The translations under genes and the position numbers were made by a program. DNA of 64,000 nucleotides from Serinibacter salmoneus (GTDB lineage: Bacteria; Actinomycetota; Actinomycetes; Actinomycetales; Beutenbergiaceae): contig NZ_PDJD01000001.1 in the NCBI RefSeq assembly GCF_002563925.1, positions 2,796,973 to 2,860,972 on the forward strand. The letters are read 5' to 3'. The notes under the pieces are model-generated. The model did not search any database. It had not been told where the DNA came from and worked only from the letters and a program-made list of their open reading frames with translations. Shown here piece by piece: positions 25,463-32,284 of this stretch. Numbering within the stretch: position 1 is the first letter of the stretch; each line of letters starts with the position of its first letter.

Positions 25463-25867
25463 ATGAGCGACGCACCACCCAGAGACTGGCGCACCGTCGT
25501 GGTGGACGACGACCCCGACATCCGCCACCTCATGGAGCTCGCCGCACAGCGCGCAGGCACCACGGTGATCGCTACCGCCGAGGACGGCCCGGGCGCCCTG
25601 GCCACGATCCTGGAGCACGCCCCCGATCTGGTGCTGCTCGACGTCTCCCTGCCCGGCATGTCCGGCCTCGAGGTGCTGTATCACCTCGTCTCCGCGTTGG
25701 GGGGAAGCACCGCACCACGCCCGCGCGTGGTGGTGGTCTCCGCGAGCGTGGGCCCGATCGACCGGGAACGCACCACCGCCGCGGGGGCGGATGCGTTCGT
25801 ACCGAAGCCGTTCCGGGTCCGGGACCTCGCCAGCACCCTCGCCGGCCACATCGCGGCCTGGAGATGA
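25463..25867 (+). CDS. Stand-alone response regulator receiver protein
   Basis: A 134-residue single receiver domain without an output domain. Acidic residues D15-D17, phospho-acceptor D60 (LVLLDVSLPGMSGLE), the switch Ser in VVVVSAS and K115 (FVPKPF) are all present. It is the first gene of a seven-gene overlapping operon, and its stop overlaps the histidine kinase start (ATGA). Such stand-alone receivers often relay phosphate or act as allosteric switches. TAGGCT about 45 bases upstream (around 25409) may be the operon's -10 box. ATG 25463 is chosen over an in-frame TTG at 25457 because a GAGAG site fits it. Confidence 0.88.
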   Translation: MSDAPPRDWRTVVVDDDPDIRHLMELAAQRAGTTVIATAEDGPGALATILEHAPDLVLLDVSLPGMSGLEVLYHLVSALGGSTAPRPRVVVVSASVGPIDRERTTAAGADAFVPKPFRVRDLASTLAGHIAAWR

Positions 25868-27663
25868 CCGCCTCCCCCAGCGCCGGCTCAACCGGCTCAA
25901 CGGGCTCGACGGGCTCCACCGGCTCCCGCACCGGCCGTGCCGTCTCCACCCTGCTCTCCATCGGTACCACCCCGCGCCGGCGCCAACTCTCGGTCACGGC
26001 CACGATGGCCCTCGCTCTGCTGCTGGCGTGGGCGCTCCCCGGCAATCCGATCGAGGAACCGGGCCTCGTGATCGCGGCCGGTGCCGTCATCGCGGTGCCG
26101 ACGGTGCTCGCACTGACCATGGACTGGGATCGTCACGACGACGCCGTGGAGGCCGTGCTGCCGCTGCTCACCCTCGCGGCCTTCGCCCTGCTGCGGGCCG
26201 GCACCGGTGGCGTGAGCTCGGTGTTCGGAGCGATCGTGCTGCTCCCGGTGTTCTGGATCGCCTCGCTCTCGGGCCGCCGCTGGCTCTGGCTCGTGGTGGT
26301 CGGAATCGCCGTGGTGGTGGGGCTGCCCTACGCGCTCGGCGTGGACACCTTCTCTGCGGCCAGCCTCACCCGCGTGCTGTTCACCCCAGCGATGTACGTG
26401 CTGCTCGCAGCCAGCGTGAACGCCCTGTCCAACCAGCTGCGCAGCTACGGGCAGGAGATGGCCGAACAGGCGAGCTTCACCACCGGGGTGCTGGACTCCA
26501 TGGTGCACGTCGCCCTGATCGTGACCGACGCCCGAGGCGGCGTGGTGCTCCTGGGCCCGGGTGCCCGCACCATGCTCGGGCTCCCCGCGCAGCCCGGGCC
26601 CTGCGATCCGCGGCTGGTCACGGAGATCATCGCGGTCGACACCGCCTCCCAGCCCCCGGAGATGGGGCCCGAGCCCCGGGCGCTGCTCGCCCGGATCGAC
26701 GGCACGCACGACGTCACCACCGGCCTGCGCCTGCTGCCCCGCGGCGGTCCTCCCCTGCCGATCCACCTCTCCAGCACGGCGCAGCGGGACTCCTCGGGGC
26801 GCGTCATCGGGCACATCCTGCTCGCCACCGACATGAGCGACCAGGTCAAGCTCGACCGGATGAAGGACGAGTTCATCGGCACGGTCTCCCACGAGCTGCG
26901 CACCCCGCTCTCCTCGATCCTGGGCTACCTCGAACTGCTCGGGGAGGAGGACGAGCCCCTCACCCCCACCCAACGTCGCTACCTGGAGGTCGCCGAACGC
27001 AACGCGCAGCGGCTGCTCGCCCTCGTGGGAGACCTGCTCTTCGTGGCGCAGGTGGACGCCGACCGGATCCCGCTGAACGTCGAGGACGTGGACCTGGTCC
27101 GGGTGGTGCGTGCCGCCGCGCAGTCCGCGCAACCCGCCGCTGTGCGCACCGGTGTGCACCTGGTGGTCGAGGCGCCCGACACCCTCCCCTTCCACGGCGA
27201 CCCCCGCCGACTGGGTCAGGTGTGCGACAACCTGCTCGCCAACGCGCTGAAGTTCACCCCGACGGGTGGCACGGTCACCCTCATCCTGCGTCGCGACGGC
27301 GTCGACCCCGCGGCGGCCCCGGAGGACACAGGGCCCGCACGGGCCGCACCTCCGAGCGACGCCGTCGTGCTCGAGGTCACCGACACCGGGATCGGGATCC
27401 CCGCCGAGGAACTCGACCACCTCTTCACCCGGTTCTTCCGTGGCTCCACCGCCACCGCCCGCGCCATCAAGGGCGTCGGGCTCGGCCTGCACATCACCCG
27501 CGCCATCGTGCTGGCACACGGCGGTGCCCTGGGCGCCCGCTCGCAGGTCGGCATCGGGACGACCTTCACGGTCACGCTGCCCATCGGCGGCGCCGAGCCT
27601 GCCCCCGACGCCGATGCCACCCCCGTTCCCCGCATCCCTCACGAGAGCGTGGCCACCTCATGA
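25864..27663 (+). CDS. Membrane histidine kinase with PAS domain
   Basis: A 599-residue sensor kinase. A flexible repeat GSTGSTGSTGSTGS (residues 8-21) precedes five or six membrane helices (about 44-190). A PAS-like domain follows (about 205-325, SMVHVALIVTDARGGVVL), then HisKA with the phosphorylated His at about 343 (GTVSHELRTPLSSILGYLE) and an ATPase domain with DNLLANALKFTPTGG, VTDTGIGIP and GVGLGLHITRAIV. It overlaps both neighbours by ATGA, tying it to the stand-alone receiver before it and the receiver-deacetylase after it as its likely partners. The signal is unknown; the membrane part may itself be the sensor. The frame is open upstream, but ATG 25864 is the coupled start. Confidence 0.9.
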   Translation: MTASPSAGSTGSTGSTGSTGSRTGRAVSTLLSIGTTPRRRQLSVTATMALALLLAWALPGNPIEEPGLVIAAGAVIAVPTVLALTMDWDRHDDAVEAVLPLLTLAAFALLRAGTGGVSSVFGAIVLLPVFWIASLSGRRWLWLVVVGIAVVVGLPYALGVDTFSAASLTRVLFTPAMYVLLAASVNALSNQLRSYGQEMAEQASFTTGVLDSMVHVALIVTDARGGVVLLGPGARTMLGLPAQPGPCDPRLVTEIIAVDTASQPPEMGPEPRALLARIDGTHDVTTGLRLLPRGGPPLPIHLSSTAQRDSSGRVIGHILLATDMSDQVKLDRMKDEFIGTVSHELRTPLSSILGYLELLGEEDEPLTPTQRRYLEVAERNAQRLLALVGDLLFVAQVDADRIPLNVEDVDLVRVVRAAAQSAQPAAVRTGVHLVVEAPDTLPFHGDPRRLGQVCDNLLANALKFTPTGGTVTLILRRDGVDPAAAPEDTGPARAAPPSDAVVLEVTDTGIGIPAEELDHLFTRFFRGSTATARAIKGVGLGLHITRAIVLAHGGALGARSQVGIGTTFTVTLPIGGAEPAPDADATPVPRIPHESVATS

Positions 27664-28736
27664 CCGCACCCGACCCCCCGCACCGCGTGCTCGTGGTGGA
27701 GGACGACGCCGATATCGCCGACTACCTCGCGATCGTGCTGGAGCGCCGAGGGTTCGAGGTGGCCACTCGCCACGACGGCGCCGCCGGACTGGCCGCCGCG
27801 CGCGAACTGCGCCCCGAGGTGCTGGTGACCGACGTGGAGATGCCCGGCATGAACGGACTCGACCTCGCCGAGGCGGCCCGGCGGGAGGACCCCACCATCG
27901 CGGTGGTCGTGATCACCGCGCACGCCTCGGTCGACTACGCCGTGCGGGCTCTGCGGGGCCGGGCCGATGAGTTCCTCACCAAACCGATCACCTCCCAGGC
28001 ACTGCTGCACGCCGTCGCCCCGCTCGCTGCCCGGGCGCGCGGTGAGCGTGCACGGCGCAGCGCCCGCACCGTCCTGGCGATCGGCGCCCATCCCGACGAC
28101 GTCGAGATCGCGGTCGGTGGCACGCTGGCCGCGCACGCCGACGCCGGCGACCCCGTGGTGATCCTCACCCTCTCCCGTGGCGCCCGCGGCGGCGGCACCA
28201 CGAACCGGCAGAACGAGGCGATGGCCGCGGCAGAACGACTCGGCGCGCGACTCTTCCTGGAGGACCTCCCCGACACGACGATCCCCCCGGCCGACCCCAC
28301 GGTGGGGATCATCGAGCGGGTGGTGGCCGAGGTGCGCCCCGCCATCGTCTACACCCACTCCGGTCGCGACCGTCATCAGGACCACCGCGCCGTCGCCTCC
28401 GCCAGCCTCGTGGCCACCCGGCGGGTCGACACGGTCGCCTGCTTCCAGACCCCCTCAGCCACCGTGGACTTCGCGCCCTCCCGGTTCGTGACGATCGACC
28501 GGTACATCGACGCGAAGCTCCACCTCATCGCGGCATTCGCGTCCCAGACCGCCATCCGCGACTACCTCGAACCGGACTTCGTGCGCGCCACCGCCCGGTA
28601 CTGGTCCCGGTTCGGCACGGGCCGCTACGCCGAACCGCTGGAGATCGTGCGGGATGCCTCCGGGGTGGGCGTGCCCGACGGCGCAGCGCACCTGACCGCG
28701 CCGGTCACCACCGCAGAACTGACCAGGGAGTCCTGA
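27660..28736 (+). CDS. Response regulator receiver fused to a PIG-L deacetylase
   Basis: A 358-residue fusion. Residues 1-125 are a receiver domain with E14/D15/D16, phospho-acceptor D58 (LVTDVEMPGMNG), T86 and K108 intact. After a short linker, residues about 136-330 are a PIG-L/LmbE zinc deacetylase: IGAHPDDVEIAVGG gives ligands H144 and D147, and YTHSGRDRHQDHRAV gives H242. Both halves retain their key residues, so phosphorylation probably controls deacetylation directly instead of transcription. The likely substrate class is an N-acetylated amino sugar or glycolipid. Start and stop overlap the kinase and ATP-grasp genes. I know of no characterised example of this fusion. Confidence 0.9.
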   Translation: MTAPDPPHRVLVVEDDADIADYLAIVLERRGFEVATRHDGAAGLAAARELRPEVLVTDVEMPGMNGLDLAEAARREDPTIAVVVITAHASVDYAVRALRGRADEFLTKPITSQALLHAVAPLAARARGERARRSARTVLAIGAHPDDVEIAVGGTLAAHADAGDPVVILTLSRGARGGGTTNRQNEAMAAAERLGARLFLEDLPDTTIPPADPTVGIIERVVAEVRPAIVYTHSGRDRHQDHRAVASASLVATRRVDTVACFQTPSATVDFAPSRFVTIDRYIDAKLHLIAAFASQTAIRDYLEPDFVRATARYWSRFGTGRYAEPLEIVRDASGVGVPDGAAHLTAPVTTAELTRES

Positions 28737-29710
28737 TGCCTGCACGTGTTCTCGTGACCGGGGCCGGTGGGCCCGCCGGGGTCGCCGTCATTCGCTCCCT
28801 GCTGCGCCGGGAGGCGCAGGAGGGCGACATCGAGGTGTTCGCGGCCGATATGGACGGCTGGGCGAGCGGCCTCTACCTCGTGGCCGCGGACCGACGCCTG
28901 CTCGTGCCGCCGGGCGCCTCCCCCGCGTTCGTGCCGACCGTGCGGCAACGGGTGGCCGACCTCGGGATCGCGGTGGTGATCTCCACCGTGGACGTCGAAC
29001 TCCTGCCCCTGGCACGTGAGCGTGACAGCCTCGGCGCGGAACTCGCCGCACCGTCGCTCGCCGCGCTGGAGACGTGCCTGGACAAGTGGCGCCTGGTCCA
29101 GGCATGCCGGACCGCCGGCGCCGCGGTACCCCGCACCATGGTGCTGGAACCCGCCGCGATCAGCGCCGACTGGGACTACCCGGTGATCGTCAAGCCGCGC
29201 TCGGGCGCGGGCTCGCGCGGCGTGCGGCTGGTCGCCAACCCGGCCGATCTCGCGGCGATCGGCTCCGACTCCACGCTGATCGTGCAGGAGAACCTGCCCG
29301 GCGAGGAGTACTCCGTGGACACCGTGATCGGGCCCACCGGCGTGATCGCCGCGGTGCCGCGCCTGAGGGCCCGGGTGGACTCCGGCGTGGCGATCGCCGG
29401 GCGCACCGTGGCCGACCCCGAGTTGGTGGAGGTGGCCGCCGCCTGCGCCCGCGCCGCCGGGCTGCTCGGCGTGGTCAACGTCCAACTGCGGCGCCGCGCC
29501 TCCGGCCGACCGGCCCTGCTCGAGATCAACCCCCGGTTCTCAGGGGCGATGCCGCTCACGATCGCCTCCGGCGTGGACATGCCCTCCCTCGCGGTGGACA
29601 TAGCCCTGGGACTGCCGCTGCCGGAGCGGGTGCCGTTCGCGGAGGTCGCGGCGGTGCGGTTCCTGGAGGACGTGGTGGTGCCGGTCGAGGAGATCGAGGC
29701 ACTCACGTGA
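28736..29710 (+). CDS. ATP-grasp ligase
   Basis: A 324-residue ATP-grasp enzyme of the carbamoyl-phosphate-synthase-like type. Features: pre-ATP-grasp Rossmann segment RVLVTGAGGPAGVAVIRSLL, ATP-binding strands YPVIVKPRSGAGSRGV and LIVQENLPGEEYSVD, and metal-binding ALLEINPRFSG. Family enzymes activate a carboxylate as acyl-phosphate and join it to an amine or thiol. In this operon a free amine made by the deacetylase could be the acceptor, but that is a guess. The start shares one base with the previous stop (TGATG). Confidence 0.88.
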   Translation: MPARVLVTGAGGPAGVAVIRSLLRREAQEGDIEVFAADMDGWASGLYLVAADRRLLVPPGASPAFVPTVRQRVADLGIAVVISTVDVELLPLARERDSLGAELAAPSLAALETCLDKWRLVQACRTAGAAVPRTMVLEPAAISADWDYPVIVKPRSGAGSRGVRLVANPADLAAIGSDSTLIVQENLPGEEYSVDTVIGPTGVIAAVPRLRARVDSGVAIAGRTVADPELVEVAAACARAAGLLGVVNVQLRRRASGRPALLEINPRFSGAMPLTIASGVDMPSLAVDIALGLPLPERVPFAEVAAVRFLEDVVVPVEEIEALT

Positions 29711-30456
29711 GCACCGCACCGGGCGGGTGGCAGGCGGAGTTGCTCACCGGGGACTTCCACGTGCACACCGACGTCTCCGACGACGCCCACTCGCCCCTGG
29801 CGGACTGCCTCGCGGCCGCGATCGCCCGGGGCCTGCGGGTGGTGCGGATCACCGACCACGTGCGGGTGGACTCCACCTGGCTGCCGCGCCGCGCCGCGCT
29901 GCTGGCGGCGGCCGCCCAGAGCGGCATCGCATCCGAACTCCAGGTGCTGCCGGGGTTCGAGACGAAGCTGCTCGACGTCGTCGGGCACCTCGACGCCCCA
30001 CCCCACCTCCTGCTCACCGCGCCGCAGCACCTGGTGATCGCCGATCATCAGGTGCCGACCCCCACCGGCCCGTGGAGCCCGCGGCACACCCGGGAGGCCA
30101 TGGCGGCCGGGCTGCCGCCCGCCACGGTGCTGGCGTGGCTGATCGGGTCCTACCTCGCCGTCATGCACCGCCACCCCGGCGCTCAGCTCGCGCACCCGTT
30201 CTCGATCCTGCCGAAGATCGGCCTGGCCGAGTCCGACCTCACCGCGCAGCAGGTGGCCGACTGGGCCGGCACCGCTGCCCGGACCGGCACCACGATCGAA
30301 GTGAACGAGAAGTGGGGGTGCCCTGCGCCGTCGACCATCGCGGCAGCGCGGCGCGCAGGAGCGAGGCTCGTGGCCTCCTCCGATGCGCACGAGGCCGGCG
30401 ACGTCGGGCGCTACGCGCGGGTGCCGGCGCTGCTGGCCGAGGCCGCCGATGCGTGA
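29707..30456 (+). CDS. PHP-domain phosphoesterase
   Basis: A 249-residue polymerase-and-histidinol-phosphatase-type metalloenzyme. Metal motifs visible: DFHVHTDVSDDAH (HxH), VRITDHV, FETKLLDVVGHL, AHPFSILPK and SSDAHEAGDVGRY. The family hydrolyses phosphate esters such as histidinol phosphate or nucleotides. Here it probably removes phosphate from a pathway intermediate; the true substrate is unknown. It starts with GTG overlapping the ATP-grasp stop (GTGA) and overlaps the GT2 gene by eight bases. Confidence 0.87.
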   Translation: MSTAPGGWQAELLTGDFHVHTDVSDDAHSPLADCLAAAIARGLRVVRITDHVRVDSTWLPRRAALLAAAAQSGIASELQVLPGFETKLLDVVGHLDAPPHLLLTAPQHLVIADHQVPTPTGPWSPRHTREAMAAGLPPATVLAWLIGSYLAVMHRHPGAQLAHPFSILPKIGLAESDLTAQQVADWAGTAARTGTTIEVNEKWGCPAPSTIAAARRAGARLVASSDAHEAGDVGRYARVPALLAEAADA

Positions 30457-31999
30457 GGCCCTCGAGATCGTACTGGTGGCGTTCGTGGTGATCGGGGCCG
30501 TCCCGGCCGTGACGATGGGGCTCCAGTTCCTCCTCGTGCCCGTGCACGCCTGGCGCAACCACTACGGGGCGGCCGGTGTGGCCCTGCCGCGCGTCGCCGT
30601 CGTGATCCCCGCCTGGAACGAGGGCGCGGTGATCGGGGCCTCGATCGAGCGGCTGCTCGCCCTGGACTACCCGCGCGAGTCGCTGCGACTGTACGTGGTG
30701 GACGACGCCTCCACCGACGACACCCCGGCGGTGGTGCTCGACTGGGCCGCGCGCCACCCCGGCCGGGTGATCCACCTGCGACGGGAGAAGGGCGGACAGG
30801 GCAAGGCGCACACGCTCAACCACGGGCTCGTGCACGTGCTCGGTGAGCCGTGGGCGCAGGCGGTGCTGATCATGGACGCCGACGTGATCTACGCCCCGGA
30901 CTCCCTGCGGCGCATGGCGCGGCACCTCGCCGATCCGCAGGTGGGCGCCGTGACGGCCTACATCCGCGAGGGGACGCGCCGCACCGCGTACCTGAACCGG
31001 TTCGTGGGCGTGGAGTACGTGCTCGCCCAGCTCGCCGCACGCCGGGCGCAGAACGTGCTCGGGGCCATGGCCTGCCTGGCCGGCGGGGCGCAGCTGCACG
31101 CCCGGGCGAACCTGGAGGCGCTCGGCGGACGCATCGACACCGCCACGCTCGCCGAGGACACGGTGACCACGCTGCTCACGCAGATCGACGGGCGACGCGT
31201 GGTGTTCGAGCCACACGCCGTGGTGCTGGCGGAGGAGCCCCGGGCGATCGACGCGCTGTGGAAGCAGCGACTGCGGTGGGCGCGTGGGAACGTGCAGGTG
31301 ACCCGGCGGTTCCGGCGGATCTGGTTCCGGCCGCGGTGGTGGGGGTCCGGTGAGGCGGCAGATGGCGCGGCGGGCGACGGCGGGCGGCACCGTCTCGGGT
31401 CGCTCACCTTCGGCGCGATCTGGTTCTCCGTGCTCCTGCTGCCGGTGTTCATGGTGCTCGCCTCGGTGGGGCTCGTGGGCCTGTACCTGCTGGAGTCCTC
31501 GCTGCTGTGGCGGGCGTTCCAGTGGCTGTGGATCTCGATCGGGCTGATCTACCTGTACTCGATGCTCATCGGGGTGCAGTTGGACGGGCCGGTCACTCGG
31601 CGCGGGTGGCGCGAGGTGATCCTGTTCCCCGGGGCGATTGCGATGGTGGTGATGCTCTCGGCATTCTTCCCCGGGCTCTTCGACGAGCGGGTGCCGGCGC
31701 TGTTCGGCCTGCACCTGACGGCTACGGGCGAGCGGATCTGGGTGCTGTTCACCTTCGTGTGGATCTCGGCGTGCATGCTCGGGGCGTGGTTGTGCCGGGT
31801 GGTGGACCGGGCCCTGCGGCGCAGCGGCGAGGGCTCGCGCGGGGACGGCGTGGCGAACTGGCTCTCCCCCGTGCTGGTGGGCCTCGTGGGGTACGGGCCG
31901 ATCCTGTGCGCGATCACCCTGGACTCCTACGTGAAGGAGGCCCGGGGCGCGGCGATGGTGTGGGACAAGACGGAGAAGACGGGACGGGTGCTGTCATGA
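30449..31999 (+). CDS. Processive-type membrane family 2 glycosyltransferase
   Basis: A 516-residue membrane GT2 of the IcaA/NodC/BcsA shape. One N-terminal helix is followed by the catalytic domain (VVIPAWNEGAVIGASIE, VVDDASTDD, the metal-binding MDADV and the AEDTVTT acid). The acceptor-site motif QRLRWARG comes next, then four or more C-terminal helices. The QxxRW motif marks polymerising enzymes, so the product is probably a beta-linked polysaccharide or short oligosaccharide exported across the membrane. With the PIG-L deacetylase upstream, a partly deacetylated aminoglycan is the simplest reading (inference). The stop overlaps the small membrane protein start. Confidence 0.9.
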   Translation: MREALEIVLVAFVVIGAVPAVTMGLQFLLVPVHAWRNHYGAAGVALPRVAVVIPAWNEGAVIGASIERLLALDYPRESLRLYVVDDASTDDTPAVVLDWAARHPGRVIHLRREKGGQGKAHTLNHGLVHVLGEPWAQAVLIMDADVIYAPDSLRRMARHLADPQVGAVTAYIREGTRRTAYLNRFVGVEYVLAQLAARRAQNVLGAMACLAGGAQLHARANLEALGGRIDTATLAEDTVTTLLTQIDGRRVVFEPHAVVLAEEPRAIDALWKQRLRWARGNVQVTRRFRRIWFRPRWWGSGEAADGAAGDGGRHRLGSLTFGAIWFSVLLLPVFMVLASVGLVGLYLLESSLLWRAFQWLWISIGLIYLYSMLIGVQLDGPVTRRGWREVILFPGAIAMVVMLSAFFPGLFDERVPALFGLHLTATGERIWVLFTFVWISACMLGAWLCRVVDRALRRSGEGSRGDGVANWLSPVLVGLVGYGPILCAITLDSYVKEARGAAMVWDKTEKTGRVLS

Positions 32000-32175
32000 C
32001 CGGTCGGCACGCGGGAGCCCCGGGACCCGAGCGCTCGCCCGAGGAGTGGGCGGAACTCACCGCGCACGAGATCGCGACGGACCGGCGAGCCGAGCGGCGG
32101 CTGCCGTGGCAGGCCCTGACGACGATCGCCGTCGTGACCCTCGTGGCCTGGTTCCGCCAGGTCATCTACCTCTAG
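31996..32175 (+). CDS. Small single-span membrane protein, last gene of the glycan operon
   Basis: A 59-residue protein with a charged N-terminal half (ERSPEEWAELTAHEIATDRR) and one C-terminal membrane helix (PWQALTTIAVVTLVAWFRQV). It overlaps the GT2 stop by ATGA, so it is translationally coupled. Small partners at the ends of synthase operons (IcaD/PgaD-like in position only) often stabilise the synthase; no sequence match is claimed. Its stop is followed directly by a 22-bp repeat array. Confidence 0.8.
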   Translation: MTGRHAGAPGPERSPEEWAELTAHEIATDRRAERRLPWQALTTIAVVTLVAWFRQVIYL

Positions 32176-32241
32176 CAGCCACCGCGAGGCAGTTCTGCAG
32201 CCACCGCGAGGCAGTTCTGCAGCCACCGCGAGGCAGTTCTG
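32176..32241. repeat. 22-bp repeat family, locus A, three exact copies
   Basis: CAGCCACCGCGAGGCAGTTC plus TG is repeated head to tail at 32176, 32198 and 32220, beginning at the base right after the TAG stop of the small membrane protein. The units are contiguous, so this is not a CRISPR array. The same family recurs at 35511, 39508 and (inverted) 58641. Confidence 0.9.
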
Positions 32242-32248
32242 CAGCCAC

Positions 32249-32284
<36 letters not shown>

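Follow-up and report, generated by a model that had tools for sequence, protein, structure and literature searches.

A receiver-linked de-N-acetylase in a probable synthase-dependent exopolysaccharide cluster of Serinibacter salmoneus

In Serinibacter salmoneus, a run of seven overlapping genes most likely serves to make and modify a sugar polymer that is secreted, with a signalling relay acting directly on the process. The reading that we favour, and regard as likely, is that of a novel synthase-dependent exopolysaccharide system in which a cytosolic de-N-acetylase is placed directly under phosphorelay control. The enzyme core is found again in unrelated bacteria and corresponds to none of the known secreted-polymer machines that a literature search turned up, so the cluster probably represents a biofilm or capsule machinery of a new kind.

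Organization of the seven-gene locus

The seven ORFs lie on the forward strand at positions 25463-32175 of the window, the 64,000-nucleotide stretch of DNA that was analysed, which belongs to a genome assembled as a single contig of 3.27 Mb; their domains were assigned with Pfam. The first ORF (25463-25867) encodes a stand-alone CheY-like receiver of 134 residues (Response_reg, 2.5e-22), and the second (25864-27663) a sensor histidine kinase of 599 residues (HisKA, 9e-21; HATPase_c, 9e-27). Downstream of the kinase, the third ORF (27660-28736) fuses a receiver (Response_reg, 1.4e-27) to a PIG-L/LmbE de-N-acetylase (PIG-L, 1.7e-23). The three following ORFs encode an ATP-grasp ligase resembling PRK12767 and 2PN1 (28736-29710; ATPgrasp_Ter, 2e-31; 2pn1, 2e-22), a ycdX-like PHP-domain metallo-phosphoesterase with a GTG start (29707-30456; PHP, 1.5e-7), and a GT2 membrane synthase (30449-31999; Glyco_tranf_2_3, 9e-32). 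Lastly, an ORF overlapping the GT2 stop (31996-32175) encodes a 59-residue protein with one C-terminal membrane helix, for which Pfam returns no match. The successive junctions overlap by 4 (ATGA), 4 (ATGA), 1 (TGATG), 4 (GTGA), 8, and 4 (ATGA) bases, and the same -4/-1/-8 junctions occur in most of the 45-58 loci examined per junction. The overlaps are not a matter of chance, since relatives share these junctions and repeatedly place the last gene at the stop codon of the GT2. The preliminary description of this DNA, which claimed seven overlapping genes, is confirmed in its coordinates, overlaps, intact catalytic motifs, and Pfam domains. As a scan of 25.0-32.6 kb found neither a sigma-70-like promoter nor a terminator-like site, the seven genes would be transcribed as a single unit.

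The upstream neighbour of the cluster, separated from it by a gap of ~120 bases, is a GH36 alpha-galactosidase (P0008), the gene of which nothing ties to the cluster. At the other end, a 22-bp tandem repeat (GCAGCCACCGCGAGGCAGTTCT, 3.5 copies) starts at the last base of the operon and covers window positions 32175-32250, followed by a (CGACGG)6 array at 32249-32284. Genome-wide, the 22-bp repeat returns 72 matches with at most 3 mismatches versus 0 in a reversed control, and its CCACC-GCGA-GGTGG variants would form small hairpins.

The membrane synthase, its small partner, and the export proteins

The GT2 protein displays the DDAS, DAD, AEDT, and QRxRW motifs, with membrane helices at its N- and C-terminal ends. 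The catalytic motifs are conserved in 57 homologues and belong to the ~80 columns that are invariant among 25 diverse members of the family. The AlphaFold (AF2) model of the protein (pLDDT 89.7) matches PcManGT best (Z 29.6), followed by BcsA (Z 24) and hyaluronan synthases (Z 22-24), and it aligns with BcsA and the hyaluronan synthases over most of its length. Its DXD, TED-like, and QxxRW motifs, its helices, and its modelled fold point to a processive-type inner-membrane GT2, in keeping with the synthase-type membrane enzyme that had been proposed earlier. A non-processive GT2 is nonetheless possible, because the closest solved fold, PcManGT, is a mannosyltransferase outside the polymer synthases. 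The best NCBIfam match is the PgaC_IcaA equivalog, which the protein fails with 122.1 bits versus a cut-off of 422.3, as do two proteobacterial members of the family (140.2 and 121.5 bits).

In 49 out of 57 loci, the stop of the GT2 gene is overlapped by an ORF that encodes 35-110 residues and includes a hydrophobic segment, whereas such an ORF is found at the end of the control genes in 0/63 (ATP-grasp), 3/52 (PHP), and 0/80 (PIG-L) cases. This difference argues that the 59-residue protein is a conserved partner of the GT2 and not noise. It carries a D-x3-E-R-x-L motif, and a motif like D-x3-E-[RK] preceding the helix is common to partners from Actinomycetota to Rhodothermales. Eight of the 57 GT2 loci yielded no such partner, among them L069, L074, L075, and L079. 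A conserved protein of ~110-130 residues (cluster c78) is encoded near the cluster in these four loci and in L097 and L145, all within one GT2 clade. Together, the GT2 and its single-helix partner would polymerise an activated sugar, probably an amino sugar, on the inner membrane face and extrude the chain.

Proteins combining TPRs with a C-terminal β-barrel were found in 14 loci or genomes, all diderm, and in none of the monoderm loci, where none is expected. The AF2 model of the L097 protein has 14 strands, and its best Foldseek match in the PDB is the cellulose exporter BcsC. In VIA-align, the barrel is aligned with OmpG, a 14-strand porin (Z 20.6); the top rows do not include BcsC and split into TPR-only and barrel-only matches, so that the likeness to BcsC rests on Foldseek and on the architecture. 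Moreover, BcsB-like proteins (PF03170, 1e-13 to 2e-9) are encoded near the cluster in L068, L075, L079, and L097. The modelled L097 protein is consistent with the TPR and outer-membrane barrel exporter of synthase-dependent systems, and in the diderm relatives this BcsC/PgaA-like protein would carry the polymer through the outer membrane. It is mainly on account of these export proteins that the product is called a secreted polymer. On the side of the diderm relatives, these proteins lend support to the polymer proposed earlier, and, as monoderm loci have no export protein, the claim of a polymer for the window rests on these relatives. The polymer is putatively amino-sugar-based; in L074 and L073, GlmS is encoded next to the cluster, which may be a hint in the same direction.

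Other secreted proteins are encoded in the vicinity. Large ones adjoin the receiver-PIG-L gene in L063 (1-1994), L068 (9393-12695), L073 (5042-8680), and L097 (10101-12557), those of L063, L068, and L097 sharing a motif like GLES[ND]GxxA; they are possible matrix or surface partners. A secreted protein of ~600-760 residues, resembling by eye an alpha/alpha toroid glycosidase, lies near the GT2 or PIG-L gene in L084, L089, L090, L092, and L068, and Pfam returned no match for the two that were tested (L090 and L068).

The fold of the GT2 also bears on an alternative in which the product is an amino-sugar glycolipid or a lipid-linked head group, the GT2 adding one sugar, PIG-L freeing the amine, and the ATP-grasp capping it, following the logic of HpnI/HpnK or of GPI. 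PcManGT as closest solved fold and a weak NCBIfam similarity to HpnI are in line with this scheme, as is the action of other PIG-L enzymes on conjugates of GlcNAc that are small. However, the alignment with BcsA and hyaluronan synthase over most of the length and the conserved QRxRW motif argue for a polymer synthase, and a glycolipid would not need the TPR-barrel and BcsB-like proteins of the diderm loci. We therefore consider it unlikely.

Sugar-editing enzymes and phosphorelay control

The kinase comprises hydrophobic N-terminal segments, a weak PAS domain, HisKA, and HATPase_c, and the stand-alone receiver that precedes it is present in several relatives too. In the fusion protein of the window, the receiver residues D15, D16, D58, T86, and K108 (DD.D.T.K) provide the acidic pair, the phospho-acceptor Asp, the Thr, and the Lys, which, together with the adjacent kinase gene, mark it by sequence as a two-component response regulator. 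The PIG-L part exhibits the motifs AHPDD, H233, and HQDH, and the zinc motifs (AHPDD and HxDH) are kept in 79-80 of 81 homologues, as befits the PIG-L/LmbE family. Among 75 full-length homologues, the receiver is intact in 59 and degenerate in 16. A homologue of the window kinase is encoded nearby at 46 of the 59 loci with an intact receiver (the window included), as compared with 2 of the 16 with a degenerate one. Three gammaproteobacterial loci (L065, L074, and L076) show another arrangement, an H-NOX protein (PF07700, about 1e-31) and a hybrid kinase lying divergently beside the receiver-PIG-L gene. The hybrid kinase was checked with Pfam in L076, those of L065 and L074 being its homologues, and all three score below the level at which window-kinase homologues were counted and are left out of the 46. 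H-NOX proteins form a family of nitric-oxide sensors. The gene order would have H-NOX act on the receiver-PIG-L protein, and the pairing suggests nitric oxide as an input.

The PIG-L, ATP-grasp, and receiver proteins have no evident export signal, and QxxRW synthases extrude the chain while making it. Hence, the amino-sugar substrate from which the deacetylase takes N-acetyl groups would be cytosolic, in all likelihood the precursor or the start of a chain. The kinase would phosphorylate the receiver fused to PIG-L and thereby change the deacetylase directly, with no transcription step, the direction of this control being putative. Response regulators with enzymatic output, such as PorX and PleD, likewise have a receiver fused to an enzyme and a kinase alongside, but the output is here a de-N-acetylase, and no paper on a receiver-PIG-L fusion as response-regulator output was found in the open-licence literature searched.

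The ATP-grasp residues G9, G11, G12, D38, D116, K117, K153, and P154 are present in 65 out of 65 homologues. The enzyme would then couple an amine, perhaps the one freed by PIG-L, with a carboxylate, for which an amino acid is the probable source, although this product chemistry is putative. The metal-binding set of PHP (D16, H18, H20, D25, H51, E85, H114, H163, D226, and H228) is invariant in 53 homologues, as would be expected of a PHP phosphoesterase. Across the loci, the phosphatase slot is occupied by PHP (53), histidine phosphatase (8), or LMW-PTP (3), never by two together, while 20 loci have none of the three in the stretch examined. That three unrelated phosphatases share one slot suggests a real dephosphorylation step, in which PHP would take phosphate off an intermediate or a regulator.

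Mycothiol and bacillithiol are made by a similar set of step types (MshA-MshA2-MshB-MshC; BshABC), namely a glycosyltransferase, a phosphatase, a PIG-L deacetylase, and a ligase, the last of which would be ATP-dependent in a small soluble metabolite pathway of this kind. Each step type has its counterpart in the cluster, BshB1 is the best NCBIfam match of the PIG-L protein, and loci of Leifsonia keep PIG-L, ATP-grasp, and PHP without an adjacent GT2. Yet PIG-L fails the BshB1 equivalog (87.4 bits versus a cut-off of 182.5), the glycosyltransferase is a membrane GT2 and not a GT4, and the same Leifsonia genomes hold the GT2 elsewhere. The cluster further differs from these pathways by its export proteins, its ATP-grasp ligase, and its phosphorelay control, and a soluble product appears improbable. 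A Nod-factor-like signal would be a short chito-oligosaccharide made by the GT2 as NodC, deacetylated by PIG-L as NodB, and N-acylated by the ATP-grasp as NodA. The similarity of the GT2 to NodC (86.8 bits in NCBIfam) and the placing of a deacetylase and a ligase, both cytosolic, next to a QxxRW synthase fit this scheme, but the score is far below the NodC cut-off of 550, no NodA-type acyltransferase was identified, and the TPR-barrel export points to a polymer, leaving such a signal very improbable.

Distribution of the core and relation to known systems

Named genomes were scanned with the receiver-PIG-L protein, which yielded 80 loci that were then searched with the seven proteins. PIG-L, ATP-grasp, PHP, and GT2 are neighbours in Microbacterium, Leucobacter, Salinibacterium, Cellulomonas, Blastococcus, Frigoribacterium, Serinicoccus, and Occultella, among others. 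In Proteobacteria, Myxococcota, Thermoleophilia, and Rhodothermales, PIG-L is accompanied by ATP-grasp and/or GT2. Searched for in other genomes, the complete seven-gene order of the preliminary description is not conserved, though the core is. The receiver-kinase pair lies upstream in the window and in Blastococcus, but Microbacterium, Cellulomonas, and Leifsonia have it downstream of GT2; where the fusion receiver is degenerate, it is mostly missing. PHP can be replaced by other phosphatase families. The core that recurs in Actinomycetota, Proteobacteria, Myxococcota, and Rhodothermales consists of receiver-PIG-L, ATP-grasp, (PHP), and one strict GT2 family.

The cluster is sparse. Among 248 evenly sampled Micrococcales genomes, 9 hold the GT2 family, each with PIG-L next to it and all of them among the 13 with receiver-PIG-L (~1e-13, hypergeometric, a value that ignores relatedness, related genomes not being independent samples), and the genes for PIG-L, ATP-grasp, PHP, and GT2 are adjacent in the relatives that were fetched. 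Two of the 4 genomes with receiver-PIG-L and without the GT2 have a sister GT2 that is ~32-38% identical. Phylum-wide, 2 of 346 genomes have the GT2, and in the class of L077 it is present in 1 of 289 genomes, which is L077's own. At the divergent PIG-L loci, mostly diderm, 10 of 11 genomes hold exactly one GT2. Where the two genes are not neighbours, the GT2 usually lies elsewhere in the genome, as it does in a Streptosporangiales MAG, in Cellulomonas algicola, and in two Leifsonia. The distances in the family trees correlate at 0.84-0.95. A mere chance neighbourhood, or shared regulation only, could be read from the varying position and presence of the receiver-kinase pair, but it is contradicted by the 9/9 co-occurrence, the conserved overlaps, and the similar trees and is hardly credible; co-localisation adds to these in upholding the earlier view that the enzymes belong together. 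A plasmid search with the GT2 returned no match and that with receiver-PIG-L a single partial one, on a 1-Mb replicon of Arthrobacter, so that the cluster looks chromosomal. A sister cluster of PIG-L, ATP-grasp, and a more distant GT2 (32-38% identical) is found in L057, L058, L114, and L120; in L057 and L120 it also encodes a secreted protein that is conserved and for which Pfam returned nothing. As this sister cluster exists, the combination of PIG-L, ATP-grasp, and GT2 may be a broader theme.

PNAG and cellulose machineries are among the closest known systems. The PNAG systems (PgaABCD/IcaADBC) likewise pair a QxxRW GT2 with a small membrane protein and include a deacetylase for amino sugars and, in diderms, a TPR and β-barrel exporter. 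However, the PNAG deacetylase is of the NodB type and extracytoplasmic, whereas here it is a cytosolic PIG-L fused to a receiver, the partner, of about 50 residues, has a single membrane helix, and the genes for ATP-grasp and phosphatase come in addition. Bacterial cellulose synthase (Bcs) shares the synthase fold, and its BcsC-like TPR-barrel and BcsB-like proteins are found in some of the loci, but the cluster adds the amino-sugar editing genes, no PilZ domain is seen in the GT2 by Pfam, and the BcsA/CelA call of NCBIfam stays below its cut-off (53.4 versus 699.1 bits). A 2020 survey counts five synthase-dependent systems, namely cellulose, acetylated cellulose, PNAG, alginate, and Pel, and its main text does not mention PIG-L or ATP-grasp (PMC7112194). 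EmbRS of Rubrivivax (PMC3684757) was also examined and is unrelated. The earlier statement that no described pathway has this gene set agrees with the open-licence literature, in which none was found, an absence that is not proof of novelty.

Beyond the exopolysaccharide system that we favour, a more specific proposal can be put forward tentatively: a sixth synthase-dependent class, sparse over several phyla, whose polymer is a de-N-acetylated and re-aminoacylated amino sugar, and in which a sensor kinase, with H-NOX beside it in some lineages, would switch polymer chemistry by phosphorylating the deacetylase. If true, this would represent another synthase-dependent system with its own synthase family, a tiny membrane partner, and a cytosolic sugar-editing step. 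The fusion of deacetylase and receiver would then give a direct switch from kinase to polymer chemistry, beside the better known routes through transcription and c-di-GMP.
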